Source: an uncultured Mediterraneibacter sp.
Lineage (GTDB): Bacteria; Bacillota; Clostridia; Lachnospirales; Lachnospiraceae
NCBI GenBank assembly: GCA_944377745.1
Contig: CALWFV010000006.1
Coordinates: 59,115 to 123,114, forward strand
Length of the DNA: 64,000 nucleotides
Direction of reading: 5' to 3'
Part shown: positions 20,923 through 33,256 of the stretch, one piece after another
Layout: each line of letters starts with the position of its first letter
Numbering within the stretch: the first letter of the stretch is position 1
Notes under the pieces: model-generated
What the model was told of the DNA's origin: nothing
Databases searched by the model: none
The model's input: only the letters and a program-made list of their open reading frames with translations
Translations under genes and position numbers: made by a program

Positions 20923-20984
20923 TTTTCTTTATTTTTCACATACTTATACGCATTTCACCTCATTTTTATAGCAGCTTTATTTAT

Positions 20985-21024
20985 ACATTTGACAAATGTG
21001 CACAAATCATATACATTAAATGTA
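20985..21024 (+). promoter_or_regulatory. lacI-type gene promoter overlapped by two palindromic operators
   Basis: The -35 TTGACA (20989-20994) lies inside the palindrome ACATTTGACAAATGT (20985-20999). After a 17-base spacer the -10 TACATT (21012-21017) lies inside the palindrome TACATTAAATGTA (21012-21024). Both share the half-site ACATTTG/ACATT with the repeats near the permease promoter, so the repressor probably controls its own gene. Confidence 0.75.
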
Positions 21025-21055
21025 ACACCACTAACCGGAAAGAGGTACTATTATT

Positions 21056-22093
21056 ATGGAAAAGAAAGTTACGATCCAGGATATTGCAGACGCGTTGGGC
21101 CTTTCCAGAAATACAGTATCAAAAGCACTGAACAATACGGGGGTCCTGGCGGAAGAAACACGTCAGAAGGTTCTTGAAAAAGCCGCGGAGATGGGATACC
21201 GCCGTTTTATCTATCTTTCCCGGTCCTCATCTTCTGATGAGAATACCGAAATAAAAGAACTGGCGCTGATCACACAGAACATGCCGTATGGTTCTCATTT
21301 CGGGACCTACGCGCTGAATACTTTTCAGGAAAAGATCAGCCGGAACAATTACCGGCTTTCCATGTTCCCGGTAAGAGAGGCGGAAATCTCCTCCCTCCAG
21401 CTTCCCATGGGTTTTAACAGGGAAAAGACAGCCGGGATCCTCTGCCTGGAAATGTTTGATCCGGAATATATCGAGATGCTGGACACTCTTGGTATCCCGC
21501 TTCTTTTTATCGATACGGCGGCCGACGCGGACATGACTCAGATCCGGGCGGATTTCCTGTTAATGGAGAACCATCTGAGCATTTTCAACCTGACCGATAC
21601 ACTGATACAGAACGGATACAGGAATTTTGCCTTTGCCGGGGAGCCGAAGCACTGCCGTTCTTTCAACGAACGGTATGAAGGTTTTATGCACGCTCTTACT
21701 GTAAACAGGCTCACTCCTTCCATCTCTCAGTTTACGGGGCGGACCGTTTTTGACACCCCGCAGAACCTTGCGGAAACCATCCGGCGGACGATCCAGCTCC
21801 CGGACGTTTTTATCTGCGCAAATGATTTTGTTGCCATAGACCTGATCCGGGCTCTGAAGAAACAGGGGATCCGGGTGCCGGAGGATGTACTGGTCACCGG
21901 ATTCGACAACTCCGCCGAATCAAGGATCATCGATCCTCATCTTACCACCGTCGATATCCCCAGTTCAAAGATGGGATATATCGCCGCCGACATGCTGCTC
22001 TCCCGGATCAATGAGCCGGATATGCCGTACCGTATCACACATGTCCGGACCACGCTGAAGTTCCGGGCGTCAACAGGGGAATTAAAACTGTAG
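21056..22093 (+). CDS. LacI-family transcription repressor
   Basis: A 345-residue repressor. Residues 4-50 are the LacI helix-turn-helix plus hinge: VTIQDIADALGLSRNTVSKALNN. The rest is a periplasmic-binding-like sensor domain with DVFICANDFVAIDLIRALKKQG and the terminal DEVLVTGFDNS-like segment (DVLVTGFDNSAESRIIDP). It is divergent from the lplB-lplC-SBP-GH32 operon and separated from it by an operator-rich region. It therefore likely represses the operon until a fructan or sucrose signal binds. A strong terminator overlaps its stop codon. Confidence 0.93.
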   Translation: MEKKVTIQDIADALGLSRNTVSKALNNTGVLAEETRQKVLEKAAEMGYRRFIYLSRSSSSDENTEIKELALITQNMPYGSHFGTYALNTFQEKISRNNYRLSMFPVREAEISSLQLPMGFNREKTAGILCLEMFDPEYIEMLDTLGIPLLFIDTAADADMTQIRADFLLMENHLSIFNLTDTLIQNGYRNFAFAGEPKHCRSFNERYEGFMHALTVNRLTPSISQFTGRTVFDTPQNLAETIRRTIQLPDVFICANDFVAIDLIRALKKQGIRVPEDVLVTGFDNSAESRIIDPHLTTVDIPSSKMGYIAADMLLSRINEPDMPYRITHVRTTLKFRASTGELKL

Positions 22094-22141: not shown

Positions 22142-22251
22142 TTTTCAATCCGCTTAGAATTGTATTGCACCTCGTCCACTACTTCGCTCACAGGTATATG
22201 GTTTCCGGCTTCGCAGCTTTTCGGGCTGTTCGTTTGCCTTGCCTTTATCTT
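22142..22251 (-). repeat. Remnant copy of a mobile-element gene leader
   Basis: Bases 22142-22162 are identical to 26260-26280, and 22163-22251 match 26463-26551 with four differences. In the intact copy these two blocks are separated by 182 bases that include the start of the gene at 26067-26396. So this is an internally deleted copy of that locus, left outside the present element. It supports an older related insertion having occupied 22142-23530. Confidence 0.75.
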
Positions 22252-22328
22252 GATTACGTTATAACCCTTTTCAAGTTATATGCCAACCTTTTTGTAATAT
22301 ATTTTTTATTGTTTTTATGTTTAATAGG

Positions 22329-22357
22329 TTGGTTTATAACCTGTTTATTGTTATAAT
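22329..22357 (+). promoter_or_regulatory. Promoter of small HTH gene
   Basis: -35 TTGGTT (22329-22334), 17-base spacer, -10 TATAAT (22352-22357). The -35 region is part of GGTTGGTTTATAACC, and related ATAACC/GGTTAT blocks lie at 22258 and 22350. These are possible autoregulatory sites for the HTH protein. The rest of 22252-22328 is AT-rich with nothing recognised. Confidence 0.7.
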
Positions 22358-22381
22358 CAAGACAGAAAGCGAGGTGTCATT

Positions 22382-22609
22382 ATGCCAATAATATACAAAG
22401 ATAACGAACAGATTGTTATTGAAATAAAAAAGCTCATGCTCGAAAACAAGATATCTCAACGTGAAATTGCTGATAAAATGAATATCAAACCGCAAGGACT
22501 AACCAAAATATTAAACAAGAAAAATTTCGGTTTTGAAGATGCAGAAAGAATCCTTTCTGCTATGGGATACAATCTAATAGTCGATTTTCAAAGCAACCTA
22601 GAGGTTTAA
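22382..22609 (+). CDS. Small HTH (XRE-like) DNA-binding protein
   Basis: A 75-residue protein with one helix-turn-helix: ENKISQREIADKMNIKPQGLTKILN. The C-terminal part (FEDAERILSAMGYNLIVDF) is typical of compact Cro/C1-type regulators in clostridial mobile DNA. AT-rich relative to neighbours, which fits transfer. Together with the two following genes it forms a small tandem set just outside the left end of the integrated element. Confidence 0.8.
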   Translation: MPIIYKDNEQIVIEIKKLMLENKISQREIADKMNIKPQGLTKILNKKNFGFEDAERILSAMGYNLIVDFQSNLEV

Positions 22610-22633
22610 GCACCACGAAAGGATGTGCATTTT

Positions 22634-22837
22634 ATGAAACTATGGTGGCGCTGTCCGAATTGCGGAAACAAGGTTGATTTTACAGAAGAATTAATAGACA
22701 CTTGCTTTGATCCTGAGGACGGAGAAGCTTATTTTGATCCTGAACATGGGATTATTTTTCACACAATATTTTGTCATTCCTGCGGTGCCTCATGGATTAT
22801 GGACATTGGCAGTATAAGCCGGGAATTTATCAAATAG
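22634..22837 (+). CDS. Small CxxC zinc-ribbon-like protein
   Basis: A 67-residue protein with two Cys pairs, WRCPNCGN near the N-terminus and FCHSCGASW further on, the layout of a zinc ribbon. The acidic centre (DPEDGEAYFDPEHG) separates them. The start is at 22634 (MKLWWRCPNCG) after GAAAGGATG; a GTG three codons earlier is the alternative. Function unknown. It sits between the HTH gene and the Uma2 gene, with nearly the same ribosome-site sequence as the latter. Confidence 0.7.
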   Translation: MKLWWRCPNCGNKVDFTEELIDTCFDPEDGEAYFDPEHGIIFHTIFCHSCGASWIMDIGSISREFIK

Positions 22838-22868
22838 CAATCTTATTTTCAAGAAAGGATGTGTTACT

Positions 22869-23414
22869 ATGCCATTACCACAGCAGAACAAAGAATATAC
22901 CATTGATGATATCTATGCCCTGCCGGACGGCCAGAGGGCAGAACTGATCGATGGACAGATGTATATGATGGCGCCGCCTACGCGGAAGCATCAGCAGATA
23001 CTTGGTGCCCTCTATCGTAAGGTTGCGGACTACATTGACAAGAAAGGCGGCTCCTGCGAGGTCGATATCGCCCCATTTGCTGTATTTCTGAATGCAGATG
23101 ATAAAAACTATGTCGAACCGGATATAAGCGTTATTTGCAATCCCGACAAGCTCACAGACAAAGGCTGCACAGGCGCGCCGGACTGGATCATTGAGATCGT
23201 TTCTCCGGGCAGCAGGCGAACAGACTACTATACCAAATTGTTCAAATACCGTACTGCCGGAGTTCGTGAATACTGGATTGTTGATCCTGAGAAAAACAGG
23301 ATCATGGTTTATTCCTTTGAGTCCGACGATACCGCAGAATATACTTTCTCTGAGGCTGTCAAAGTCGGGATCTATGATGATCTGGAAATTGATTTCAACT
23401 CAATAGATATCTAA
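22869..23414 (+). CDS. Uma2-family putative endonuclease (DUF820)
   Basis: A 181-residue PD-(D/E)XK-fold protein. Motifs seen: RAELIDGQMYMM near residue 22, VEPDISVIC (catalytic Asp) near 97, and DWIIEIVSPGSRRTDYYTKLFKYR (E and later K/R) near 120. Uma2 proteins are predicted restriction-endonuclease-like nucleases, widely distributed in mobile regions; their physiological role is not established. It ends the three-gene group 22382-23414. The 113 bases after it up to the terminator at 23528 show no gene. Confidence 0.85.
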   Translation: MPLPQQNKEYTIDDIYALPDGQRAELIDGQMYMMAPPTRKHQQILGALYRKVADYIDKKGGSCEVDIAPFAVFLNADDKNYVEPDISVICNPDKLTDKGCTGAPDWIIEIVSPGSRRTDYYTKLFKYRTAGVREYWIVDPEKNRIMVYSFESDDTAEYTFSEAVKVGIYDDLEIDFNSIDI

Positions 23415-23527
23415 ATATCAACAACAGAAAGCAACTTACATCATCAGAAAGAGATGCACTACTGGAAAAAATTTCGAGACACTGTCGACTCTGCCGAATT
23501 TACACGAGATTATTAATAAATATATAA

Positions 23528-23561
23528 AGCACCCTGTCCTCCACGGGATAGAGTGCTTTTT
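23528..23561 (+). terminator. Terminator upstream of the orphan queT leader
   Basis: AGCACCCTGTCC / GGGATAGAGTGCT hairpin followed by TTTTTC. A close homologue is found at 32544-32577 inside the right end of the element, in the same position relative to the promoter and leader RNA. Confidence 0.8.
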
Positions 23562-23581
23562 CATTTCATTGTGGGTACGGC

Positions 23582-23610
23582 TTGAATTTCAGCCCTCTCC
23601 GTGTTATACT
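23582..23610 (+). promoter_or_regulatory. Original (now orphan) queT promoter
   Basis: -35 TTGAAT (23582-23587), 17-base spacer, -10 TATACT (23605-23610). It drives the leader RNA at 23616-23717, but the downstream DNA is now the inserted element, where a terminator (23758-23796) stops the transcript. By position it should be the chromosomal queT promoter before insertion. Confidence 0.7.
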
Positions 23611-23615
23611 ATCCA

Positions 23616-23717
23616 ACGTTGCAAAGCCCACAAAAACCAAGGTCTATCGGGCTTGCCGCCGATTCCCGGCGTTAAATGAATCGAGTGTTCGAGACCTTCC
23701 ACTCGTAAAACAAAACT
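23616..23717 (+). ncRNA. Orphan queT-type leader (preQ1 riboswitch-like)
   Basis: Three stems are visible: GCAAAGCCC/GGGCTTGC (23621-23656, one A bulged), CGCCG/CGGCG (23657-23671), and CGAGTG/CACTCG (23682-23705). A conserved AAGGTCT (23639-23645) in the first loop complements AGACCTT (23692-23698) in the third loop, suggesting a loop-loop pseudoknot. The copy at 32643-32730 has different stem bases that still pair. The link to preQ1 comes from queT downstream of that second copy. The exact riboswitch class was not checked. Confidence 0.65.
23682..23717. other. attL: left 36-bp core repeat of the integrated element
   Basis: Thirty-six bases identical to 32707-32742, starting CGAGTGTTCGAGACC and ending AAACAAAACT. 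The first 24 bases form the inverted repeat CGAGTG...CACTCG that is also the third stem of the leader RNA, a typical crossover target for a tyrosine recombinase. Confidence 0.85.
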
Positions 23718-23757
23718 TCGATTCTTACCTATTTATATAGGTTTATGGTTGATTATT

Positions 23758-23796
23758 GAGCCTTGAAAACAGCGTGTTTTCAGGCTCTTTCTTTTT
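23758..23796 (+). terminator. Terminator just inside attL
   Basis: GAGCCTTGAAAACA (23758-23771) pairs with TGTTTTCAGGCTC (23775-23787, one base offset), followed by TTTCTTTTT. It points rightward, so it ends transcripts coming through the core: the orphan leader in the integrated state, or the element's own leader RNA in the excised circle. Confidence 0.85.
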
Positions 23797-23822
23797 ATTA
23801 TGATTTATCATGATATATGCAG

Positions 23823-23842
23823 TTTGGTACTTTTTTGGTACT
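23823..23842. other. Putative integrase arm-type site, left
   Basis: TTTGGTACTTTTTTGGTACT, two GGTAC copies 13 bases apart, identical to 32582-32601. It is 105 bases from the core repeat. The N-terminal domain of Tn916-like integrases binds such arm repeats. Confidence 0.7.
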
Positions 23843-23874
23843 GTCAGAATAAAAATAGAGGGCAGCAGGTCCCT

Positions 23875-24993
23875 CTAAAATACATTCGCTATTTTCTCCA
23901 TTTCCTCCGCCTTTGTATCCGGCAAAACGTGACTGTACAGATCCATTGTCATAGCAAGAGAACTATGCCCGAGAATCGTCTTTAATACCTGCGGTTGCAT
24001 CCCCGCCTCTATTGCTCTGGTGGCAAATGTATGCCGGAACACATGGGAAGTGATCCTCGGGAAGTCATGGCCTGCTGCCCTGATCCGCTTTATAGTCCGG
24101 TCTATTTCTGCCTGTATTCTTTCCCGGCTTAGCGCCTCCCCTCTTTCATTGCAGAAAATATACTGATTCATATTAACGACCTTAAAGCCCCAGTAATTCC
24201 GCTGTGCCTCTATATGCTCCAATACGGCAGCAGTCAGCGGGATATCCCTTGTAGAAGTCCGTGTTTTTGGCGTGTCCTCTATATATCCGTGATGCTCAAT
24301 ATATTTCAGCGTGCGCCTGACGTGTATAACGTTTGCTTTTCGGTCTATATCCGGATATTTAAGCCCCTGCATCTCTCCTTTTCTCATGCCAGTGCGGAGC
24401 ATAACCTCAAAGAAATGATATAAATAGCTTTCCTCCGCATATTCCATGAACAACGCCTGCTGCTCTCTTGTCATAGCCTTCCGTGTTTTCTTCTCCGTCT
24501 GACGTGGTAATTCTGCTAATTTCACCGGATTCCGTTCAATCAGACCGTTCCGTTCTGCCTGCTTAAAACAGCCATTCAACACAGCAGATATAATTTTGAT
24601 GCTTGAAAGTGCATACCCCTCTTTTACCAGATCATTGTATAATTTTTGAATATGCTCGCCTCGTATATCATTTAAGTTCCTGCTACCGAGTCTGCTCTTA
24701 ATGACACTCTGATAATATTTTTCATAGCTGGTATATGTTCCGATCTTCACCCGATTCTTTTTATATTCCTCCAGCCATGTTTTATACCATTCGTCCAATG
24801 TGAGCTTTTCTTTTGCCACATACAGCCCATGCTCCAGCTTATATTTAAGCTCTGTCATGGCTTTCTGCGTCTCTGTGACCGTTTTCCCATGCACAAGGTA
24901 TCTTTTCCCCTGATACATGAAACGCCCTTCAAAATCTTCATAGCGCTGCCTTATTCCTTTCGGGAGCTTTCTCCCTCGCTTATCAACTGCCAT
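23875..24993 (-). CDS. Tyrosine site-specific recombinase (integrase)
   Basis: A 372-residue Tn916/phage-type integrase that would catalyse insertion and excision at the 36-bp core. Domains: arm-binding N-terminus (about 1-60, FEGRFMYQGKRYLVHGKT), SAM-like core-binding domain (about 65-160), catalytic domain (about 170-372). Catalytic residues seen: Arg in MLRTGMRKGEMQGL, Lys in the following beta hairpin, HVFRHTFATRAIE (H-x-x-R), HSS in LGHSSLAMTMDLY, and nucleophile Tyr in DLYSHV. Start at 24993 has AAAGGAGCAGGC. It lies next to attL, reading toward it, the normal position. Confidence 0.95.
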   Translation of the reverse strand: MAVDKRGRKLPKGIRQRYEDFEGRFMYQGKRYLVHGKTVTETQKAMTELKYKLEHGLYVAKEKLTLDEWYKTWLEEYKKNRVKIGTYTSYEKYYQSVIKSRLGSRNLNDIRGEHIQKLYNDLVKEGYALSSIKIISAVLNGCFKQAERNGLIERNPVKLAELPRQTEKKTRKAMTREQQALFMEYAEESYLYHFFEVMLRTGMRKGEMQGLKYPDIDRKANVIHVRRTLKYIEHHGYIEDTPKTRTSTRDIPLTAAVLEHIEAQRNYWGFKVVNMNQYIFCNERGEALSRERIQAEIDRTIKRIRAAGHDFPRITSHVFRHTFATRAIEAGMQPQVLKTILGHSSLAMTMDLYSHVLPDTKAEEMEKIANVF

Positions 24994-25135
24994 GCCTGCT
25001 CCTTTCTCTGCCGGCTGAACGTCAGTTCACATATTGCAATAGGGCCACATGACAGTATATAATCATGTCGACCCTTTATCGTGTGTATTGGGTTATTTCT
25101 GTTTTGCCTCGTGGTGTTGCCGCACCGCGGGGCTT

Positions 25136-25384
25136 TTAATTGCTCAGGCTTTCAAAAATCAGCGACAGAGCATACCTAAAGCCACTCTCGAAGCCTTGCG
25201 CCTGTCCGTAGCTTGTGCCGAGACAGACCAGATCTGACCACTCATCCTCTGATAACGGACCACCTGCCCGGCTCTTCTCGCGCTCAATCTGCTCTCGGAC
25301 TGCCTCGCCTACTGTATTATCATCTACAGTGGCAGCAGGCGTATTATTATAAGCTCTCTGGTAAATATCCTGCAATTTGCTCAT
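25136..25384 (-). CDS. Hypothetical protein of the element
   Basis: An 82-residue protein, start MSKLQDIYQRAYNN, with a purine-rich site (AAGAAGGTGAGA) upstream. Mostly helical, acidic in the middle (EREKSRAGGPLSEDEWSD). Not recognised. It lies upstream of the integrase on the same strand; a GC-rich hairpin with a T tail on the plus strand (about 25107-25137) and an inverted repeat ACATGA-N10-TCATGT (near 25049-25070) lie between the two genes. Confidence 0.6.
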   Translation of the reverse strand: MSKLQDIYQRAYNNTPAATVDDNTVGEAVREQIEREKSRAGGPLSEDEWSDLVCLGTSYGQAQGFESGFRYALSLIFESLSN

Positions 25385-25498
25385 TCTCTCACCTTCTTTC
25401 TTTTTAAGGTGTACAAAATGTCCAGATTAGTTTCTTTTTATGAAAAAATTTCGGAGAAATAAATTCATCTTTCCTTTTTAGGGACGGAAGTTAAATTA

Positions 25499-25627
25499 CT
25501 ATTCATCCGGAATATCTCGCACAAAATATTTCATTACATAGTTTAAAATCTTGTTCAGACGATCAATATCTTGAATCTGATTTACGTATTTTTTTATATA
25601 CTCTATGTATTCCTCTCTAGTTAACAC
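25499..25627 (-). CDS. Small 42-residue protein
   Basis: GTG start after GGAGAAAATAAAA, reading VLTREEYIEYIKKYVNQIQD and ending KYFVRDIPDE. Strongly amphipathic helix with regular hydrophobic spacing, suggesting a small coiled-coil or adaptor peptide. Not recognised. Supported by the ribosome site and its position in a same-strand run of element genes. Bases 25385-25498 hold nothing else that I can support. Confidence 0.45.
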   Translation of the reverse strand: MLTREEYIEYIKKYVNQIQDIDRLNKILNYVMKYFVRDIPDE

Positions 25628-25701
25628 TTTTATTTTCTCCTATCTGCTCTGTCTCCCGGATCAGGCACGCCAACACCTTCACCGGGATGGAATATACGTT
25701 A

Positions 25702-25953
25702 TTACGTCGTTTTCTTCCTTCTGGCTCTCTCTGCGCGTTTACCGTATATATACCCCAACATGAAAATATCACTCGCGGCATCTACCGTAAATGTATACGG
25801 TCTCGCTTCACTGATCTCCTTAATCTCATGGCGCACTACGTCGTTATCCCAAATGATTGATGCGGCATATTGATGGCCTAATAGCCGCATTGTGTCGTTT
25901 TTCCTATATGGATTCTGGTTCTGTGGTATTTCTTTTCCGAAAACGTTTTTCAT
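25702..25953 (-). CDS. Hypothetical protein of the element
   Basis: An 83-residue protein, start MKNVFGKEIPQNQNPYRKND chosen for the site AAGGAAGAGGAAAG just upstream; an upstream start at 25983 is less likely. Contains ASDIFMLGYIYGKRAERARRKK, a hydrophobic stretch followed by a basic tail. Not recognised; similar short proteins with a C-terminal YGKRAERAR tail are common in clostridial integrative elements. Confidence 0.6.
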   Translation of the reverse strand: MKNVFGKEIPQNQNPYRKNDTMRLLGHQYAASIIWDNDVVRHEIKEISEARPYTFTVDAASDIFMLGYIYGKRAERARRKKTT

Positions 25954-26066
25954 CTTTCCTCTTCCTTTCCCCATAGGATCCATGCTATTATGTAAATGGT
26001 ATGTTACTGCATGGCTCCGGCTGTGCTGCCCCTGTCAGTGTTGCAGCACTGGCAAGGGCTTTTTCT

Positions 26067-26396
26067 TTATGCTGTCGCGATTTCCTGTACCTGAGAGCGT
26101 CCGAAGAATCTCGCTTTGTATACAGCACCATCACCCTTACTTCCCCAGATCAGCTCTGCACCAAACAACGCCCTGCTGCCGTGTATCACTTCATATCCGA
26201 GCTGTTTCCATCCGCTCCATGTGTTCGTATCCTCGTTGATTCCTGCTGCCGCTTTCGCGTTTTCAATCCGCTTAGAATTGACTTCCTCGGCTTTCGCTGA
26301 GAGCCATGCTCTATGTAAGCACTCCGCGAATGAAAGCTGCATCTTACGGTAGTTCTTCCATGCTCTTAACATGATCGCCCTGAGATTGTATTTCAT
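26067..26396 (-). CDS. Small conserved element protein
   Basis: A 109-residue basic protein starting MKYNLRAIMLRAWKNYRKMQ, with AAGGAG eight bases upstream. Pattern: helical N-terminus with the FAECLHRAWLSAK repeat, then GWKQLGYEVIHGSRALFGAELIWG. Proteins of this type recur in Firmicutes integrative elements; function unknown. A partial, internally deleted copy of its start region lies at 22142-22251. Downstream, a hairpin with GCCCCTG/AAGGGC arms lies near 26027-26053. Confidence 0.65.
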   Translation of the reverse strand: MKYNLRAIMLRAWKNYRKMQLSFAECLHRAWLSAKAEEVNSKRIENAKAAAGINEDTNTWSGWKQLGYEVIHGSRALFGAELIWGSKGDGAVYKARFFGRSQVQEIATA

Positions 26397-26462
26397 GTTC
26401 CTGTCTCCTTCCATTGTTTTTTCTAAGATATCGGATGCATCCGGCCGGATCATCTTCCTGAC

Positions 26463-26551
26463 TATTGCACCTCGTCCACGACTTCGCTCACAGGGATATG
26501 GTTTCCGGCTTTGCAGCTTTTCGGGCTGTTCGTTTGCCTTACCTTTATCTT
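26463..26551 (-). promoter_or_regulatory. Conserved 89-base leader upstream of the 26067-26396 gene
   Basis: This block lies between a likely promoter and the gene start and is conserved (four changes) in the remnant at 22163-22251. The high conservation suggests a functional leader or a recent common ancestor. No clear stem structure or leader peptide with its own start is obvious. Confidence 0.45.
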
Positions 26552-26566
26552 ATGTTCTTATTATAG

Positions 26567-26646
26567 TACATGTACATGTATATTTCTATTGACAGAATCC
26601 ACAAACATGTACATGTATTTCTGTCTATTTTGTACATGTACATGTA
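26567..26646. promoter_or_regulatory. Triple ACATGTACATGT operator with divergent promoters
   Basis: Three identical 12-bp palindromes at 26568-26579, 26605-26616 and 26634-26645. The third overlaps the -35 (TGTACA, 26637-26642) of a plus promoter with -10 TATACT (26660-26665, 17-base spacer). The first abuts a minus-strand -10 TATAAT (26565-26560). A likely autoregulatory site for the ribbon-helix-helix protein encoded next. Confidence 0.7.
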
Positions 26647-26726
26647 TTTCAATATATGCTATACTTAAGGCATACTAGAAGAGGTGTATCCATTTTGGGA
26701 CTCACCCCATGAAAGGAAGTGAATAC

Positions 26727-26936
26727 ATGGCACTAACTGATGCGCAAAAGCAAGCGCGATATAATTACGCACGAAAAAGCCTCAAGCGTATCCCTCTGGA
26801 CGTTCAAAAAGAAAAATATGAGGAAATAAAATTGGCAGCAGAGCGCTCTGGAGAGTCTGTGAACGGATATATCAAGAAAGCCATAGATGACCGCATAGAG
26901 CATGAATCTTCCGGATTCTCTGGAAATTCTAAGTAA
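26727..26936 (+). CDS. Ribbon-helix-helix DNA-binding protein
   Basis: A 69-residue protein, start MALTDAQKQARYNYARKSLK after AAAGGAAGTG. The ribbon RIPLDVQKEKYEEIKLAAER followed by SGESVNGYIKKAIDDR is the Arc/MetJ-type fold used by dimeric repressors and antitoxins. No toxin gene is adjacent on the same strand. The three ACATGTACATGT sites upstream fit tandem RHH dimers, so it probably represses itself and the divergent genes. Confidence 0.8.
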   Translation: MALTDAQKQARYNYARKSLKRIPLDVQKEKYEEIKLAAERSGESVNGYIKKAIDDRIEHESSGFSGNSK

Positions 26937-26975
26937 TATCTTGCACCACTATTCCGAATATGCTATATTAAAAGT

Positions 26976-27067
26976 GCAAAAGGAACAACCGCCACAAAGT
27001 GGTTGGCCCCGTTAAAGAGTAATAGAATCACCACCCTAACTCGCCAAAGTTTCCGGGGTGGTTTTTC
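26976..27067 (+). ncRNA. Small RNA, probable antitoxin RNA of a type I toxin
   Basis: Promoter -35 TTGCAC (26941-26946), 17-base spacer, -10 TATATT (26964-26969). The predicted RNA of about 90 bases has a hairpin CAACCGCCAC/GTGGTTGG and ends at a terminator, ACCACCC...GGGTGGT plus TTTTT (27031-27067). It converges tail-to-tail with the small hydrophobic peptide gene at 27082-27174, the arrangement of holin-like toxin / RNA antitoxin pairs in Firmicutes. The function is inferred from arrangement. Confidence 0.6.
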
Positions 27068-27081
27068 TATGCCTTAAAACA

Positions 27082-27174
27082 TTACTTCAAGTTCGCAAAA
27101 ACGAATGTCAGCAATGCCAGAATGAACATTCCAAAAGCCATCAGATCTTTAAAGTCAAACGGTTTCTTGTCCAT
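27082..27174 (-). CDS. Small hydrophobic peptide, putative holin-like type I toxin
   Basis: A 30-residue peptide: MDKKPFDFKDLMAFGMF followed by ILALLTFVFANLK, a single membrane helix with a basic end. It fits the Hol_Tox/TxpA-like group of type I toxins that depolarise the membrane. The G-rich ribosome site (GGGGGTGG) is preceded by ATTCTACATAGAAT, a hairpin that could mask it. Promoter: -35 TTGCTG (27269-27264), 17 bases, -10 TAGGAT (27246-27241). The 3' end faces the RNA at 26976-27067. Likely stabilises the element. Confidence 0.7.
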   Translation of the reverse strand: MDKKPFDFKDLMAFGMFILALLTFVFANLK

Positions 27175-27347
27175 CAGCACCACCCCCATTCTATGTAGAA
27201 TAGAGGTCAGCCACCCTGCAACACGGTTGTTCCTGTCCATATCCTACCACATCGGGCAGCAGGCAGCAACCACTTGTTCGATTTCTTTATAAACTTAAAA
27301 GCGAAATTCTCCCCCTTTTATAAATTCTCAGCTAGAGTTGGAAAAAG

Positions 27348-27548
27348 TTACCCACAGCCAGTAGAGCCGGGATAGCCCACTCGATTATGGGAGGGGGGGA
27401 TAGCATTTAAAATCTGATGCGGGAATATATTGTAAATCAAGGTGAGGGGCGGTGAAGTGCAGACCCTCCTGCCCCGGCGTTTCGCCCGATGAGCCCGCCT
27501 GATCGCCTTTCCTGCTGTCGGACCGTGATACCCTTCGTGATTCTTCAT
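27348..27548 (-). CDS. Small conserved element protein (MKNHEGY type)
   Basis: A 66-residue ORF starting MKNHEGYHGPTAGKAIRRAH, overlapping the sigma-factor stop as ATGA, so likely translated by coupling. The first ~25 residues are the conserved part known from many clostridial elements, where the protein is usually shorter; the remainder (TSPPLTLIYNIFPHQ...) looks like read-through beyond a lost stop. Function unknown. Bases 27175-27347 otherwise hold only the toxin promoter and leader. Confidence 0.55.
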   Translation of the reverse strand: MKNHEGYHGPTAGKAIRRAHRAKRRGRRVCTSPPLTLIYNIFPHQILNAIPPSHNRVGYPGSTGCG

Positions 27549-28453
27549 CATGAATACCCCAACTCCTTCTCCGCCCATCGAAGTGCCTCTCTTTCAACCT
27601 CGCTCTCCCATGTCTCAAGATACCGCTGCACTCCTACGTGATGGATCGGAGCGGCTGAGAGATATTCTTCAAAGTACCCCCGGAACACTTTGCACCTATG
27701 AGGCTGTCGCAGAATCCGCATTGCCTTGCTTTCAAGCTGTCTCGCCCTCTCCCGGTTCACGCCCAGCGCCTGCCCTGTCTTTTCCAGTGTCAGCCTGTCT
27801 TTGTACCGCAACCGGACGGCAGCAGGCAGATCTCCGGGGAGCTGATCCACAGCAATCCACAGTTCCCGCTTCATCTGCTCCTTGTCGATCTCCCTGATGG
27901 TATCCTCTTCCATGTCCTCACCAGATGGCACAGTATCACCTATACTGATATCGCCCTCCATGCCCTGCACAGGCTCGTCAAGGCTTCGGATATTGCCCAT
28001 CTGAGCCGCTTTCCTGATCTGATCGAGTTTCTTCCGGCTGACGTACAGGAAGGCGCACAGCTCCCTATCTGAGGGATCACAGCCGTACTCCTGCCGGTAT
28101 TCCCTCACGATCTTCTGGTACTGCCGGACTTCATCTCCTGCGTTGAATGACAGCCGCACCGTCCGGCTGTTGTCCGCGCAGATCCGCATCCGGCGCTTGA
28201 TCCAGAATGCCGCATAACTTATGAATGACATTCCGCGAGCCGGACCATAATGCTGAACCGCTTCACACAGGGCAATATAGCCCTCCTGCTCCAGATCCTC
28301 CATCTCTGCCCCTGCAGAATATCTCCGGGCTATCATTGCAATAAAGCCCTTGTTCTGCTGCCAGAGCTGAAGCATATTCTCTGCCTCATTGTCTCCGGCC
28401 TGAACCGCTGCAACGATACATTCGTTTGTTCTGTCATTTTGATTTATTGACAC
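27548..28453 (-). CDS. Sigma-70 family RNA polymerase sigma factor
   Basis: A 301-residue sigma factor. Region 2 near residues 45-95: MEDLEQEGYIALCEAVQHYGP and FISYAAFWIKRRMR (-10 recognition). Region 3 follows (DPSDRELCAFLYVSRKKLDQI). Region 4 near 205-250: LPAAVRLRYKDRLTLEKTGQALGVNRERARQLESKAMRIL (-35 recognition helix). An extra C-terminal tail of about 45 residues is present. Such factors in phages and satellites redirect transcription to late or mobile genes; targets here are unknown. Confidence 0.88.
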   Translation of the reverse strand: MSINQNDRTNECIVAAVQAGDNEAENMLQLWQQNKGFIAMIARRYSAGAEMEDLEQEGYIALCEAVQHYGPARGMSFISYAAFWIKRRMRICADNSRTVRLSFNAGDEVRQYQKIVREYRQEYGCDPSDRELCAFLYVSRKKLDQIRKAAQMGNIRSLDEPVQGMEGDISIGDTVPSGEDMEEDTIREIDKEQMKRELWIAVDQLPGDLPAAVRLRYKDRLTLEKTGQALGVNRERARQLESKAMRILRQPHRCKVFRGYFEEYLSAAPIHHVGVQRYLETWESEVEREALRWAEKELGYS

Positions 28454-28490
28454 TTATACCTTGCCCCTTTATAATTTGATTATCGAATAC

Positions 28491-28766
28491 TTAGGAAAGG
28501 GCTTGACCATTTTCGGCAGGCTCTTTTTGCGTATCTATCAACCGAATGCAACATAATGGCACAGATAACAGCAATCCATTTTCCAGACAAATAGTGCCTC
28601 TATCTCCAGAAACCTCTATCAGATCACCCCTGACCTCATAAAATTCATAATCTTCATGCTTATTATCGTCCATTAATGCCGCGGTCCATGCCACCGGAAA
28701 TAAACGTTTTCCCAATCTTATAGCAGGATCATCTTTTCTGACCATTGCTTTACAGCTTCTTTTCAT
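28491..28766 (-). CDS. Hypothetical protein of the element
   Basis: A 91-residue protein, starts MKRSCKAMVRKDDPAIRLGK. The centre is beta-rich and acidic (YEFYEVRGDLIEVSGDRG). Not recognised. Its start overlaps the end of the 28750-28980 gene by 17 bases, which suggests co-translation within the helicase operon. Confidence 0.55.
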   Translation of the reverse strand: MKRSCKAMVRKDDPAIRLGKRLFPVAWTAALMDDNKHEDYEFYEVRGDLIEVSGDRGTICLENGLLLSVPLCCIRLIDTQKEPAENGQALS

Positions 28767-28980
28767 CCTTCGCTTTCCTTTCCAATTCGTTTATTAGTGC
28801 TAATGCCAGTTCCTTTGAAAATTCCGTCTCATACTTCCTGTAAAATGCGTCTGTATCCTCGATCACTTTATTCCAGTATGCCTCTGAGTCTTCAACGCCC
28901 CAATTTTCTTCGAGCATCTTCCAGTAATCCCGGAACATTTCAAATTCCTCAGTTCCCTTTTGTAGTTTTATTGCGCTCAT
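28750..28980 (-). CDS. Hypothetical helical protein of the element
   Basis: A 76-residue acidic, helical protein (MSAIKLQKGTEEFEMFRDYW; later YWNKVIEDTDAFYRKYETEF). It follows the DnaB-like gene by three bases. Tryptophan- and tyrosine-rich small proteins at this position are common next to element replication genes; no function assigned. Confidence 0.6.
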   Translation of the reverse strand: MSAIKLQKGTEEFEMFRDYWKMLEENWGVEDSEAYWNKVIEDTDAFYRKYETEFSKELALALINELERKAKDEKKL

Positions 28981-28983
28981 ACT

Positions 28984-30273
28984 TTAATCAAACGGAGTTT
29001 TTGCCGGGGCCCGTTTAAATTCCCCGCTGCTTTTTGCTTCTTCATCAGTTTCTATGAATTTCATTTCACCGCCGTCAAACCTATACACAATCTTTCCAAG
29101 CTCTCCCTGCCGGTTCTTATCGACTTTCAGCCCCTTCCTACTGATATCCTCTGTATCCAGATTCCACAACAGGATAATAATACTTGCATCCTGCTCAATG
29201 TCTCCGGCTTCTCTAAGCTCTCCCATTGTGGGCTCTTTTGTCTCCCTTATCTCACTGACTCGGTTCAACTGAGAGAGTGCGATAATCGGTATATTCAGCT
29301 CCATAGCAAGCGCCTTTATCGCTTTAGAAATAGCTCCAACTTCGCTCGCCCGACTCTGATATCTAATATCTGCTTTTACCAACTGCAGATAGTCGATAAT
29401 GATACAGTCAAGTTCCTGATGTCGGCATTCGTTACGGATTTCAGATACAGACTTTGCGCCACTACTGATAAGAATATCCATCTTCCCTAGTGCTTCATTG
29501 GCTTTCTGAAAACGGTCCTGTTCATCTCCCAGAAACCGCTTTGCTCTGCGTATACGATTCATCCTGATTCCGCTCCGATTGCTTAGGAAACGCTCATACA
29601 CCTGCTTATCTGACATTTCCAGATTATAGAAACCGATCCGTTTTCCCTTTTTCGCCATTTCAAGAATAATCTGAGAGATAAAAGCAGACTTCCCGACTCC
29701 CGGCCGGGCACCTATCACAATCATGTCACCGCCCTCTAAGCCGCCTGTGATATCATCCAGTTTAGAGAATCCTGTGTACAGCTTGTCCTCGGTCTGCTCT
29801 TTGAAATACTGATCCTGATATTCTCCTACGATTGCAGATAGTTTCCTTGTCCGGCCCTTTTCATTCTTCTTAAGCGCTTCAAGCCCCCTCAGTAGATCTG
29901 CAATCTGTGTATTAACGCCTGCTGCCGTGATCTGCATATTAGACACAAGCCGCTTCAATTCTCTCGCCCTATACTCTTTCACAAGACTGGCAGCACAGCT
30001 ACTGATCTCTCCGGATGTGATCGGCAGCAGGACGCATTCCTTTAACACTTGGCCAATATGCTCTCGCGGGAATGTGTCGCACTCTACCGCCTGCGTGATT
30101 GTTACGAGATTGGACGGCTGCCCGATATCATAAGCCTTTACAATCTCCCGGTATATATCTCGCATAAGCGGATCACTGAACATTTCCGGCTTTAATATGT
30201 CGTAAATTTTACGTATCTGTCCATTATCCATCAGCAGACAGCCGATCACGGAACGTTCTTCAAGGCTGCTCAT
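28984..30273 (-). CDS. DnaB-like replicative helicase of the element
   Basis: A 429-residue helicase. N-terminal DnaB domain (about 1-95, SLEERSVIGCLLMDNGQIRK), linker, then a RecA-like ATPase: Walker A GARPGVGKSAF near residue 200, Walker B LDCIIIDYLQLV near 300, and the DnaB motif GELREAGDIEQDAS. It would unwind DNA for element replication. Start at 30273 chosen for GGAGG six bases upstream and the classic MSSLEERSV beginning; it overlaps the preceding gene by 14 bases. Confidence 0.93.
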   Translation of the reverse strand: MSSLEERSVIGCLLMDNGQIRKIYDILKPEMFSDPLMRDIYREIVKAYDIGQPSNLVTITQAVECDTFPREHIGQVLKECVLLPITSGEISSCAASLVKEYRARELKRLVSNMQITAAGVNTQIADLLRGLEALKKNEKGRTRKLSAIVGEYQDQYFKEQTEDKLYTGFSKLDDITGGLEGGDMIVIGARPGVGKSAFISQIILEMAKKGKRIGFYNLEMSDKQVYERFLSNRSGIRMNRIRRAKRFLGDEQDRFQKANEALGKMDILISSGAKSVSEIRNECRHQELDCIIIDYLQLVKADIRYQSRASEVGAISKAIKALAMELNIPIIALSQLNRVSEIRETKEPTMGELREAGDIEQDASIIILLWNLDTEDISRKGLKVDKNRQGELGKIVYRFDGGEMKFIETDEEAKSSGEFKRAPAKTPFD

Positions 30274-31030
30274 TCTCTGTGTCCTCCACATAATCAAGAA
30301 GCTGACTTCCCATCAAGGTATCAAAATTTTTGTAATATTCTAATTCTGTTCCTCCGGCTTTCTGCTGCTCTACGTACCGGTACACGGCAAGATACATTTC
30401 CCGATTCGTCAGCTTTCTACGTTTCCCGTTTACTGTCCGACCTTTCAGCCACGAACAATAATTTGTAAATGCTTTTGTTCGCCCGCGCTTTTTCGGATAG
30501 ATTGCATAGATTTTTTCAAAGTTTTGTTCACGTTCGTCCGGCTCCGGCGAACATATATTATATATATCTTTATCTTCTTCTTTATCTGAAACAGCGACGT
30601 CAGACGAGCTTTCAGACGATGCGTCAGACGATTTTGAAATTAACGCCTTTTGGCGGGCTCTTCTTACTGCCTGATACTCTCTGTCACGAGCTTTTTTCTT
30701 CTCATAAGCATCTAACGTCTGGTGCTTTCCCCAGTTTGGAATAGTAATAGCACCATCTATCTTTTCAATCATCCCGAATTGTTCAAATGTGTCCAGTGCT
30801 AATTTTACCGTTGCCCCCTTCATCCGAAATATAGTTGCCAGCATTTTGTCTGTGTATGCGATCCGGTCATTCATGATGAATACCCCGTCATTATTTTGTT
30901 TTCCTGCAAGACACAATAATTTGAACCATGCTGTTATGATTGCATAGGAGTCCGGCATGCTTTCGATAAGGAGGATTTTTTCATCATCGAAAATATCTGT
31001 TGCTATCTTAATCCACTTCACTTCTGCCAT
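30260..31030 (-). CDS. Replisome organiser / DnaD-like loader
   Basis: A 256-residue protein. Residues 1-115 form the phage replisome-organiser N-terminal winged helix: VKWIKIATDIFDDEKILLIE, then MKGATVKLALDTFEQFGMI. A Ser-rich, acidic linker (about 135-160) leads to a C-terminal domain KIYAIYPKKRGRTKAFTNY of the sort that contacts the helicase. It probably binds the element origin and loads the DnaB-like helicase encoded next. No clear iteron set was found within its gene. Confidence 0.85.
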   Translation of the reverse strand: MAEVKWIKIATDIFDDEKILLIESMPDSYAIITAWFKLLCLAGKQNNDGVFIMNDRIAYTDKMLATIFRMKGATVKLALDTFEQFGMIEKIDGAITIPNWGKHQTLDAYEKKKARDREYQAVRRARQKALISKSSDASSESSSDVAVSDKEEDKDIYNICSPEPDEREQNFEKIYAIYPKKRGRTKAFTNYCSWLKGRTVNGKRRKLTNREMYLAVYRYVEQQKAGGTELEYYKNFDTLMGSQLLDYVEDTENEQP

Positions 31031-31397
31031 CTTTTCCGCTCCCCTCTATGGCCTGCTGCCCGGCCGGAATTTTTAAAGCCGCTCTCGCACTCTTGGTTGC
31101 TCTCAGAGTATTCAACGCCCTTGCGTCCATCGTCCTGACAAACTCCTGTATTTCCTGCCGGTCCTTCGGTTTCCAGTACCCCCGCCCGGAGCCGGAGCAT
31201 ATCACCGCACCATGATTTCTCTCATAAGCGATACGCTCCTGAAGATTTCGGGCAGATTTACACCCCATCAACCGCACCAGATCCGCTGTCCTGATTGCAT
31301 TTTCTTTCCCTACTGGCAGCAGGCTCATTATTGGAAATTCAGTCTTGCCGGACTGATCCCCTGTATGTACTCGGTTATTTCTGTTTTCTTTCTGCAT
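31008..31397 (-). CDS. HTH-containing element protein
   Basis: A 129-residue protein. A helix-turn-helix-like part reads AIRTADLVRLMGCKSARNLQERIAYER, followed by ICSGSGRGYWKPKD. This resembles small proteins placed ahead of phage replication initiators that act as DNA-binding accessories. Start overlaps the excisionase-like gene stop (ATG/stop overlap at 31397) and its end overlaps the replisome-organiser start by 23 bases, so this is a tightly coupled early operon. Confidence 0.65.
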   Translation of the reverse strand: MQKENRNNRVHTGDQSGKTEFPIMSLLPVGKENAIRTADLVRLMGCKSARNLQERIAYERNHGAVICSGSGRGYWKPKDRQEIQEFVRTMDARALNTLRATKSARAALKIPAGQQAIEGSGKDGRSEVD

Positions 31398-31600
31398 TAC
31401 TTTACCCCCGTAAGCGAATCGAAATACTGGTCTGCTTTTTTCAAATCATACAGGACCCTCTTCCCTATCTTTACTTTACATCCTATTTCACCCCCCAGTT
31501 TCAGCGCTGTATTTCTCCCTACCCCTAAATAGGTAGCAAAATCTACAACACCCACAAGACGTTTTTCTCCATCAGGATTCATAACACTTCTTTTTATCAT
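31397..31600 (-). CDS. Excisionase-like HTH protein
   Basis: A 67-residue protein with a winged-helix pattern DFATYLGVGRNTALKLGGEIG and basic wing CKVKIGKRVLYDLKKADQYF, as in Xis and MerR-like excisionases. Ribosome site AAAGGAG. It is the first gene of the leftward early operon driven from the divergent promoter switch at 31638-31669, a fitting place for the protein that drives excision. Direct evidence of Xis function is lacking. Confidence 0.75.
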   Translation of the reverse strand: MIKRSVMNPDGEKRLVGVVDFATYLGVGRNTALKLGGEIGCKVKIGKRVLYDLKKADQYFDSLTGVK

Positions 31601-31637
31601 TGATTTATCTCCTTTCCATCATTTATCTTGTTTCACC

Positions 31638-31669
31638 TTGATTATACGTCAGAAATAGTGTATAGTGAA
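31638..31669. promoter_or_regulatory. Interlocked divergent promoters (repressor / early operon switch)
   Basis: Rightward: -35 TTGATT (31638-31643), 17 bases, -10 TATAGT (31661-31666). Leftward: -35 TTCACT (31669-31664), 17 bases, -10 TATAAT (31646-31641). Each -35 overlaps the other promoter's -10, so only one polymerase can bind at a time. TATAC...GTATA within the spacer is a possible repressor operator. Confidence 0.8.
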
Positions 31670-31723
31670 GATGTACATTTATTTTCTTTATTTTATTATT
31701 TTAACTTTTTGGAGGAAATAAAA

Positions 31724-32527
31724 TTGCATACTTTTTCTGCCATACCGAAAGAACAGCTTAAATTTTTTGGAAAGCGATTACAAGAACGCCGAAAAAAAGT
31801 CGGCATTAAATCACAAGAGGATTTTGCCGATAAGCTGGATGTAAATTTGAAAACTATTAGAAATTGGGAGCAGGGGCGAAACGCTCCAGAACTTAATACT
31901 CTGATTAATATCTGCAATATGCTAGATTGTAGCCCTGATTTTCTTCTGGGATATATAGACGAAACATCTCACGATATGCGTTACATTTCACAGGAAACAG
32001 GGCTTACAGAAACCTCGATCAGAAATATACAAGAAATGTGGCTTAAAACACTGACAAAAGATGAACGTACATTAGCCTTGTGGAACAAAAGTGAAGAAGT
32101 GCCTGAATTGCAATATAGAAAAAATGCCGTTCAATCGGTAGCCGAGCTTCATAAATACTGGAAAGAACATGGCCAATTAATAAGCGGATACGAAGAAGAT
32201 CCTGACCACTATCTATCTGAACTAGTAAAAGAAAAGAAAGAAAAAAGCAGAACTCTTTCCGCCCTCAATGTGCTTTTATCATCTCCCACCGGCAAAGCAA
32301 TACTGGAAAACATTTACGCCTTTCTCCATTTTGAATACGAGCCAAGTGACGAAGAAAAAGAAAAGACTAAGGAATTTAATGCGAAACATGGTACAAGCTA
32401 CAAGAGTGTAATTAAAGGAAAGAATGGATATGTTGACTCGGAGTATTTAAATAATAGCTTCCTTGTGAGCATACAAAACAACTGCGCTAAACTAAAGGAA
32501 GAAATTACAAAGAAAGATAGCCCTTAA
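31724..32527 (+). CDS. XRE-family repressor of the element
   Basis: About 267 residues with a TTG start eight bases after GGAGGAAATAAAA; earlier in-frame ATG codons lie inside the promoter. N-terminal HTH_3: FGKRLQERRKKVGIKSQEDFADKLDVNLKTIRNWEQG. The rest is helical and charged with no protease or sensor motif recognised. Position and divergence from the excisionase/replication operon mark it as the C1-like lysogeny repressor. Followed by a terminator at 32544. Confidence 0.82.
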   Translation: MHTFSAIPKEQLKFFGKRLQERRKKVGIKSQEDFADKLDVNLKTIRNWEQGRNAPELNTLINICNMLDCSPDFLLGYIDETSHDMRYISQETGLTETSIRNIQEMWLKTLTKDERTLALWNKSEEVPELQYRKNAVQSVAELHKYWKEHGQLISGYEEDPDHYLSELVKEKKEKSRTLSALNVLLSSPTGKAILENIYAFLHFEYEPSDEEKEKTKEFNAKHGTSYKSVIKGKNGYVDSEYLNNSFLVSIQNNCAKLKEEITKKDSP

Positions 32528-32543
32528 TTCACATGATAATATG

Positions 32544-32577
32544 GCACCCTGCCCATTACGGGATAGAGTGCTTTTTT
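32544..32577 (+). terminator. Terminator after the XRE repressor
   Basis: GCACCCTGCC / GGGATAGAGTGC hairpin followed by TTTTTTCC. Homologous to the chromosomal terminator at 23528-23561, marking how far the element's captured queT leader region extends. Confidence 0.85.
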
Positions 32578-32581
32578 CCCA

Positions 32582-32601
32582 TTTGGTACTTTTTTGGTAC
32601 T
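32582..32601. other. Putative integrase arm-type site, right
   Basis: Identical 20 bases to 23823-23842, 105 bases from the right core repeat. It lies immediately upstream of the promoter that serves queT. Confidence 0.7.
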
Positions 32602-32605
32602 TTTC

Positions 32606-32634
32606 TTGATTTCCTGCTGCCATCATGCTATACT
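32606..32634 (+). promoter_or_regulatory. queT: Element-borne promoter reading out into queT
   Basis: -35 TTGATT (32606-32611), 17-base spacer, -10 TATACT (32629-32634). It is inside the element, before the core repeat, and its transcript enters the chromosomal queT gene. Confidence 0.75.
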
Positions 32635-32642
32635 GACTTTCG

Positions 32643-32750
32643 TTGCAGACCCGTCTAAAACCAAGGTCTTTCAAGGTCTGCCGGCGGTCACCGCCGTAAA
32701 ATGTGCCGAGTGTTCGAGACCTTCCACTCGTAAAACAAAACTAAAGGAGA
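32643..32750 (+). ncRNA. Rebuilt preQ1 riboswitch-like leader of queT
   Basis: Stems: GCAGACC/GGTCTGC (32645-32681), CGGCGG/CCGCCG (32682-32696), CGAGTG/CACTCG (32707-32730). AAGGTCT (32663-32669) is complementary to AGACCTT (32717-32723), a probable loop-loop pseudoknot. Bases up to 32706 come from the element, the third stem is the shared core, and the ribosome site AAAGGAGA (32743-32750) is chromosomal. Placement before queT suggests preQ1 sensing; the multi-stem form with a long-range pseudoknot recalls class III, not verified. Confidence 0.68.
32707..32742. other. attR: right 36-bp core repeat
   Basis: Identical to attL at 23682-23717. Directly followed by the queT ribosome site, so the host side of the insertion retains only the expression end of the leader. 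Confidence 0.85.
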
Positions 32751-32758
32751 ACAGAAAA

Positions 32759-33256
32759 ATGAAAAACAAACAAAGCAAAGTGCTCTTCATAGCACAGGCG
32801 GCCATGGTTGCCGCAATCTACGTTGTACTGACACTCGTCGGCGCGTCTTTCAGTTACGGAGAGGTTCAGGTCCGTATTTCCGAGGCTCTGACCATTCTTC
32901 CGGTATTCACCCCCGCTGCGATCCCCGGATTATTTATCGGCTGTCTGATCAGCAACATACTGGGCGGATGCATCCTTCCGGACATTATCTTCGGAAGCCT
33001 GGCAACCCTGATCGGCGCGATCTTCACCTGGATGCTCCGGAACAAGAGCAAGTATCTTGCTCCGCTTCCTCCCATCATCGCGAATGTGATCGTGGTGCCG
33101 TTCGTACTCAGATACGGATATCAGGTTCCGCTTCCGATCCCGTTCATGATGCTGACAGTAGGGATCGGGGAAGTGATCTCCTGCGGCGTGCTGGGTATGA
33201 TACTGCATACGGCGCTGAGCAGATATAAAAATATCATCTTCCACGCGCAGGCGTAA
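32759..33256 (+). CDS. queT: ECF transporter S component for queuosine precursors
   Basis: A 165-residue membrane protein with five or six helices. It matches QueT: SFSYGEVQVRISEALTILPV, then TPAAIPGLFIGCLISNILGG and IFGSLATLIGAIFTW. QueT binds preQ1/preQ0 and works with the shared ECF energy module to salvage queuosine precursors. The start at 32759 follows AAAGGAGA; the longer frame to 32594 lies in the leader RNA. It is transcribed from the element-supplied promoter and leader. Confidence 0.93.
   Translation: MKNKQSKVLFIAQAAMVAAIYVVLTLVGASFSYGEVQVRISEALTILPVFTPAAIPGLFIGCLISNILGGCILPDIIFGSLATLIGAIFTWMLRNKSKYLAPLPPIIANVIVVPFVLRYGYQVPLPIPFMMLTVGIGEVISCGVLGMILHTALSRYKNIIFHAQA

Follow-up and report, generated by a model that had tools for sequence, protein, structure and literature searches.

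The window analysed here, a stretch of 64,000 nucleotides from an uncultured Mediterraneibacter sp. (G000:C6:59115-123114), contains a 9.0-kb integrative element directly upstream of queT, the gene of a preQ1 transporter. The element is bounded by two exact copies of a 36-bp core (23682-23717 and 32707-32742). Comparison of this locus with related genomes makes it very probable that the element belongs to a family of mobile elements from gut bacteria that uses the preQ1-I-like aptamer of queT as its chromosomal attachment site (attB) and replaces the promoter and leader of the gene with those carried in an arm of its own attachment site (attP). The region 5' of each core, about 200 bp with a terminator, a promoter, an AAGGTCT loop and a GC stem, is homologous yet diverged between the two ends, and the right end carries the putative promoter TTGATT-17-TATACT. 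The original prediction had described the core and this promoter correctly. Its central claim, site-specific insertion into the queT leader by an element whose right end brings its own promoter and leader, is borne out by the comparisons presented here.

In the mechanism that we propose, a tyrosine integrase would act on the core that the excised, circular element (attP) has in common with the chromosome (attB). Arm-type repeats would come first in the right arm of attP, followed by a sigma-A-like promoter, an RNA leader and finally the core, and after insertion this arm would lie directly upstream of the queT Shine-Dalgarno (SD) sequence. queT would give up its old promoter and gain the promoter and leader of the element, while the aptamer and the SD would be kept or rebuilt. 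The old promoter would be stranded at the left junction (attL), facing a terminator-like hairpin. During decay of the element, the right junction (attR) would persist as the queT promoter, leading to successive promoter replacement. Selection to keep queT regulated is plausible.

Empty sites and the target aptamer

A precise empty site was found for the related L010 element (Claveliimonas bilis c-25), not for the window's own strain. As the original prediction had anticipated, locus L166 of genome G353 joins the L010 left flank, the core and the right flank without gaps. The left flank and core align over 9834 bp (99.39% identity), the core and right flank over 1688 bp (99.17% identity), and the two alignments meet at the core. 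Judged by this near-identity, G353 and L010 appear to be one species. L166 has a single core and a single leader, and the three integrase matches in G353 all show 29-31% identity. No comparably clean empty-site pairs were obtained for the left flanks of the remaining elements.

The two leaders of the window are homologous over about 200 bp, and both might be host sequence if an element had landed between tandem queT leaders. We consider this extremely improbable, and rejected it on the L166 empty site, which has one core and one leader. Of 58 congeneric genomes, 52 have a queT match (weak or partial in three), and the core, at up to three mismatches, occurs in 43. One copy is present in 38 of these 43 genomes, and the five with two cores are exactly those in which an integrase of at least 65% identity was found at E up to 1e-80; a further congeneric genome (G040) has a 47% integrase relative. 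The tandem leaders without an integrase that the original prediction had named as contrary evidence were not seen in this set. The tandem arrangement is also opposed by the repeats at the right end, which match those at the left end of the same element in 14 of 14 cases.

For the window itself, a close empty site is L054 in genome G007, which joins the regulator gene (window 20816-22092, 82% identity) via about 120 bp to the queT leader. The last 85 bp of that leader, including the core, are identical to the left copy of the window, and queT and 2 kb of right flank follow at 87% identity. The same 85 bp of the left leader are also identical to the queT leader of L025. Window positions 22163-23530 are missing from L054, and parts of them occur inside the L009 and L008 elements; the left flank is therefore probably the decayed remnant of an older element. 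The view of the original prediction that this flank is plain native host DNA was dropped for the same reason. The Uma2 part of the flank adjoins queT in L035, L038, L040 and L042, and the helix-turn-helix gene, the zinc-ribbon-like open reading frame and the Uma2 gene all resemble cargo left by that element.

The core was found at up to two mismatches in 118 of 397 genomes of the family, and a reversed-pattern control gave zero matches, so that a chance repeat was rejected. In 37 of 40 loci analysed, the core lies immediately before the SD and queT. The original prediction took the core for the third stem of the leader RNA. The stem is real, but it is P1 of a preQ1-I-like aptamer, and the upstream leader of the element is not half of an aptamer. 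According to PMC11625349, type I preQ1-I riboswitches, which regulate queT, have UC before the 3' strand of P1, UU on top of the 5' strand and a C in the tail. Our aptamer sequences share these features and the position before queT; in the L099 variant a T replaces the tail C. Among 25 distinct queT-proximal sequences (3 of 28 variants were omitted for indels), compensatory change altered four of the six P1 pairs on both sides, with 99.3% of cells paired. The pseudoknot between the loop and the SD (P2) is almost invariant, with 99.0% of cells paired and a single varying pair, which changes on one side. Rfam family RF00522 (PreQ1) matches 32702-32750 with 23.8 bits (E 0.0066; gathering score 39), and five of 18 relatives have a listed match, at the core, with 25.7-32.8 bits, all below gathering. 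We therefore use the name preQ1-I-like and do not rest membership on Rfam.

On these features the aptamer is read as the core plus the SD, and the upstream AAGGTCT leader is therefore regarded as an accessory part. The idea of a half aptamer was rejected, as leaders free of AAGGTCT exist (the right ends of L012, L134 and L147) and the RF00522 match spans only the core and the SD. The sub-gathering score and the frequent accessory leader, whose AAGGTCT is able to pair with the aptamer loop, set the present RNA apart from known type I riboswitches. AAGGTCT is complementary to AGACCTT in the loop of the aptamer and contains the same AAGG as the SD; the two could therefore compete for pairing with the loop. 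In four congeneric queT leaders (L035, L036, L041 and L044), the tail reads GTTAAAAAAATACT instead of GTAAAACAAAACT, and a single core is present within the 15-kb stretches read. The altered tail might represent a resistant attachment site.

Arm-type repeats and promoter turnover

The genomes with two cores in the congeneric and the family-wide search were examined at their cores. Fifteen elements could be read: those of the window, L008, L009, L010, L012, L132-L138, L147, G280 and G023, the last two each split over two contigs. They span nine genus codes (g1, g25, g139, g145, g156, g164, g215, g224 and g233) and the named records L010 and L012, and in all 15 the right core is followed by the SD and queT. 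Every element has a tandem repeat with a period of 11 or 12 bp (12 bp in L008 and L009) just inside the left core and again directly 5' of the -35 box at the right end. The left repeat lies 93-126 bp from the core, and 102-107 bp in 12 of 14 tested elements. The repeat unit is TTTGGTAC in the window and L010, TGTGGGTA in L008, L009 and G023, TTTTGTAC in L012 and L136 (in L135 mixed with TTTGGTAC), GTCGGGCA in L133, CTGTGTA in L134, TTTTGGACA in L137 and L147, TTGAGTCA in L132, TTCCGGACA in L138 and AGTGGTAC in G280.

The left and right arms of the same element share an exact 8-mer in 14 of 14 cases, compared with an off-diagonal mean of 6.08 of 8. None of 200,000 permutations matched the 14 elements as well. 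With one element per type (seven types), 2 of 5040 permutations were as good because two repeat types are alike. In G023, the fifteenth element, which stood outside this test, the left and right repeats agree by eye.

The repeats change together with the N-terminus of the integrase. Between the window and L008, integrase identity is 99% in the catalytic and 96% in the core-binding part but drops to 60% over residues 1-60. Between the window and L010, which have the same repeat type, the respective values are 90%, 83% and 92%. Of 21 columns fixed between the repeat types of the window and L008, 20 fall in residues 1-60 (one is an insertion column), and one control partition gave no fixed columns. 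Most simply, residues 1-60 would bind the repeats, and the two would have been exchanged together. The family scan identified the catalytic and SAM-like core-binding parts (PF00589 and PF14659); covariation with the repeats, and not a family match, suggests that the N-terminal part is the arm-binding domain. Since matched left and right repeats follow the integrase N-terminus, the promoter and the 5' leader should belong to the right arm of attP.

Repeats of this kind are also found before queT where no element is present. Our promoter survey covered 81 distinct queT leaders with at least 250 bp of upstream sequence; a promoter was assigned by a fixed rule in 70, and 11 were left out. An 11-bp tandem repeat lies 5' of the -35 box in 29 of the 70, compared with a mean of 0.33 and a maximum of 3 after shuffling and with 0 or 1 at offsets of 8-10 and 12-15. 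Positive loci comprise 14 of 15 that bear an element, 14 of 40 congeneric loci without one and, from other genera, one of 15 without a second core (L166), so that 15 of the 29 repeat-positive promoters have no element. A count of 71 element-less loci was not used as evidence, as one of them, L146, belongs to a genome with a left end on a different contig. We infer that the repeats at element-free loci are scars of former elements. An integrase fragment was found 2 kb upstream of queT in L165, a repeat-negative locus.

It is conceivable that the repeats are operators of a host regulator of queT and not integrase sites, as they abut the -35 box, an operator-like place, and also occur in element-free genomes. 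We regard this as very unlikely. Each element carries these repeats a second time, about 105 bp in from its opposite end; they change with the first 60 residues of the integrase, and the repeat types do not cluster on the queT tree. On that tree (47 loci; 2 of 49 without a core match were left out), the repeat types need at least 20 changes, compared with a shuffled mean of 18.9, and shuffling gave a number as low in 200 of 200 cases; there is therefore no phylogenetic clustering. The leader modules change 24 times; shuffling gives a mean of 25.7 and a number no higher than 24 in 45 of 200 cases. In a count restricted to modules A-C, module C alone shows some clustering, with 6 changes against 8.1 after shuffling and a value this low in 20 of 500 shuffles.

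Turnover can be followed at one locus. In L010, an old promoter with TGTGGGTA repeats lies to the left of a newer element with TTTGGTAC repeats, and the empty site L166 retains the old promoter before queT. L010 and L166 are thus read as two successive promoters at one locus. Taken further, we think it rather likely that riboswitch aptamers can form a class of attachment sites like tRNA genes, and that the queT promoter in this group of bacteria has been rebuilt repeatedly from attP arms, with the sensor kept and solo right ends of decayed elements serving as promoters.

Site of exchange and range of the family

The junctions offer information on where the strands are exchanged. Whole P1 stems differ between attL and attR in L008, L009 and L137 (variants GAG/CTC and GTG/CAC); the aptamer loops differ in L133 and L134, and the last base in L132. 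The two junctions of L134 and of L147 share at most a few bases upstream of the core, and exchange at these loci therefore lies within it. Together these variants favour exchange in the A-rich tail of the core. The L010/L166 pair points to about 40 bp upstream of the core. Over the last 52 bp before the core, the empty L166 matches the attR of L010 and not its attL, and in this case the exchange, whether by the integrase or through homologous recombination, therefore took place 5' of the core.

Exchange in the loop-1 segment AAAACCAAGGTCT and not in the core would explain this pair; the aptamer would then come entirely from the host, and the share of the element would be limited to the promoter and the beginning of the leader. 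It would also suit L008, L009, L010 and G023, which form one left-end family and have a type B leader end at attL and type A at attR, while the sister genomes have A. However, AAGGTCT is missing in L012, L134 and the right end of L147, and the window is reversed (A at attL, B at attR), with A in its close relative L054. The whole-stem differences fit exchange in the tail, but they also fit any exchange 5' of P1. We consider exchange in loop 1 unlikely, though the last part of the element-borne leader at 32635-32706 could be host sequence under this alternative crossover.

A less doubtful, still tentative possibility is that the core exchange is site-specific and that RecA subsequently recombines the attL and attR leaders, or that elements are lost, so that the leader is partly host-derived and not a fixed attP module. 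The main difference of L166 from the attL of L010, in the last 52 bp before the core, which equal attR, is consistent with this, and so is the scatter of leader modules on the queT tree. RecA activity leaves the repeats that track the N-terminal domain of the integrase unexplained, and the L134 and L147 junctions share few bases upstream of the core. Such reshuffling is compatible with capture of the attP arm by queT and probably adds to it. The P1 hairpin could come from the element or the host; in both cases the promoter and the beginning of the leader would derive from the element, and the SD and queT from the host.

A search of the genome contigs with the integrase gave 16 loci. L022 and L023 (21-25% identity) were excluded, and the remaining 14 have at least 60% identity in the best segment. 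A copy of the core lies 3' of the integrase in nine of these 14, at 154-181 bp in eight and at about 0.9 kb in L019. The original prediction had asked whether the integrase and the core always lie in queT leaders. The same integrase family is found at the queT site in other genera, but five of the 14 relatives lie elsewhere. Two of the five, L015 and L020, lie in different intergenic regions and have repeats at either end but no queT leader; they serve as an internal control. The candidate core of L015 is the 16-bp direct repeat TAACAGAAAATTAACG; L020 gave just an 11-bp match. Integrase matches in the phage and plasmid searches were all below 60% identity.

Decay is evident in some elements. 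In L132 the integrase is absent from the locus, and L133, L135 and L138 retain fragments of it; the two cores of L138 are in inverted orientation. In G280 (L013/L139 and L140), unlike the other elements read, the integrase lies at the queT-side end with its 3' end toward the right core. The two cores of G170, G199 and G422 are on separate contigs and are not readable as complete elements. In G199, the left end L145, beside a core and an orphaned leader, shows a repeat type of its own (GTCACAAATCT), and the other core is on a different contig. Two contigs of G170 (L141 and L142) each carry queT and a core near the contig end, possibly owing to queT duplication or a mixed assembly. In G422, the core forms the end of two contigs (L143 and L144), which would be expected of a sequence repeated in the genome.

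Several observations weigh against a queT-specific family with a promoter-bearing attP arm. No core was found at the expected place in five of the 14 integrase relatives (L014-L017 and L020), and in L134 the integrase is 4 kb away from the left core. No circular attP was found; in three scans of viral contigs, relatives of the integrase and copies of the core were both absent. Similarity among several repeat types weakens the matching test for related types (the 2 of 5040 above). The agreement of L166 with attR over 52 bp also belongs here. All RF00522 scores are below the cut-off of 39 (window 23.8, best relative 32.8), and 13 of the 18 relatives have no listed match at E up to 0.5. Finally, 26 of the 40 element-free congeneric promoters lack an intact repeat.

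Comparable systems and gene content of the window

Several known elements resemble the present family in part. In elements that target tRNA genes, a conserved stem-loop RNA gene serves as attB and its function is restored by the element; usually the 3' end is restored, whereas here the upstream promoter side is replaced. Integrative conjugative elements (ICEs) of the TnGBS type also insert near promoters, upstream of them, and spare the gene, but they use a DDE transposase and are not known to have a fixed site or to replace a promoter, while here the site is fixed and the promoter is replaced. ICE SXT is a conjugative element and is not known to involve a riboswitch. Its target is the 5' end of prfC, for which it supplies a new promoter, as PMC8409611 states. 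The same paper describes 5'-end integration of IMEVchUSA3 and other dusA-specific elements in a tRNA-modification gene, with the new promoter shown by lacZ fusions (PMC8409611). The 5'-end target and the element-supplied promoter are common to both cases and ours, and integration is likewise site-specific in the dusA elements. The difference is that prfC and dusA are entered in the coding sequence and receive a new N-terminus, whereas the queT elements enter an untranslated aptamer and leave the protein unchanged.

The statement in the original prediction that this is not a standard strategy was thus too strong, since promoter replacement at 5' coding ends is described in that source. The strategy is the same, but the target class, a riboswitch, appears to be new, and it comes with evidence of repeated turnover. 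Among the matches listed in the open-licence literature, no title or abstract reported a riboswitch as an integration site. An element of this kind could insert itself ahead of a useful gene, in its regulatory region, and yet leave the gene active, by targeting a sensing RNA conserved across genera and carrying a promoter in its attP arm. This predicts that a riboswitch can be a hotspot for mobile DNA and that, in some cases, a bacterial promoter is what remains of an integrase binding site. The loci provide a natural series of promoter and leader swaps ahead of one conserved aptamer. They also provide a natural series of arm-site changes paired with changes of the integrase N-terminus, which makes arm recognition directly testable.

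Table 1. Features in and around the queT insertion locus of the window
Feature	Position	Strand	Remarks
LacI-type regulator gene	21056..22093	+	last host gene left of the insertion region; runs on to queT in the close empty site L054/G007; label from reading of the sequence
Probable older-element remnant	22163..23530	+	missing from L054; pieces within L009 and L008 elements
Helix-turn-helix gene in remnant	22382-22609	+	PF01381
Zinc-ribbon-like open reading frame in remnant (weak)	22625-22837	+	
Uma2 nuclease gene in remnant	22869-23414	+	PF05685
Single TGTGGGTAC unit	23570..23578	+	probable relic of an arm repeat of an older element
Orphaned left (old) putative queT promoter TTGAAT-17-TATACT	23582..23610	+	
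Orphaned left 5' leader, type A	23611..23681	+	AAGGTCT at 23639-23645
Left core (attL)	23682..23717	+	preQ1-I-like P1, loop, A-rich tail
Rightward terminator-like hairpin and T-run	23758..23799	+	just within left end; -16.3 kcal/mol, z -3.5
Left arm-type tandem repeat TTTGGTAC	23823..23841	+	11-bp period
Tyrosine integrase	23875..24993	-	PF00589 E 7e-29, PF14659; 3' end toward left core
Small ribbon-helix-helix-like protein	26709..26936	+	PF16777 E 0.005, PF21983 (NikA-like) E 0.028, both below cut-off
Sigma-70 family factor	27548..28453	-	
DnaB-type replicative helicase	28984..30297	-	
Phage replisome organiser	30260..31030	-	PF09681 E 2e-43
Possible excisionase-like small protein (weak)	31397..31600	-	PF20063 E 0.009; phrog_66 E 0.002
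Cro/C1-type repressor	31628..32527	+	PF01381 E 2e-10
Terminator-like hairpin with T-run	32543..32577	+	5' of right-end promoter; -13.7 kcal/mol, z -2.6
Right arm-type tandem repeat TTTGGTAC	32582..32600	+	11-bp period; abuts -35
Element-borne putative queT promoter TTGATT-17-TATACT	32606..32634	+	boxes at 32606-32611 and 32629-32634
Element-borne 5' leader, type B	32635..32706	+	AAGGTCT at 32663-32669
Right core (attR)	32707..32742	+	
Host Shine-Dalgarno AAAGGAG	32743..32749	+	its AAGG (32744-32747) is able to pair with CCUU in the loop of the aptamer
queT, preQ1 transporter	32759..33256	+	PF06177 E 5e-50

The family scan covered part of the open reading frames of the element, and among those scanned no relaxase, transfer, capsid or terminase family was above cut-off. 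The NikA-like mobilisation-protein match of the small protein at 26709-26936 stays below threshold. We class the window element only as an integrative element, and not as an ICE, a prophage or a phage satellite. The hairpin just within the left end may protect the element against the queT promoter stranded at attL. Together with the hairpin before the right-end promoter, it may insulate the element and the new promoter; the other elements were compared by eye only in this respect.

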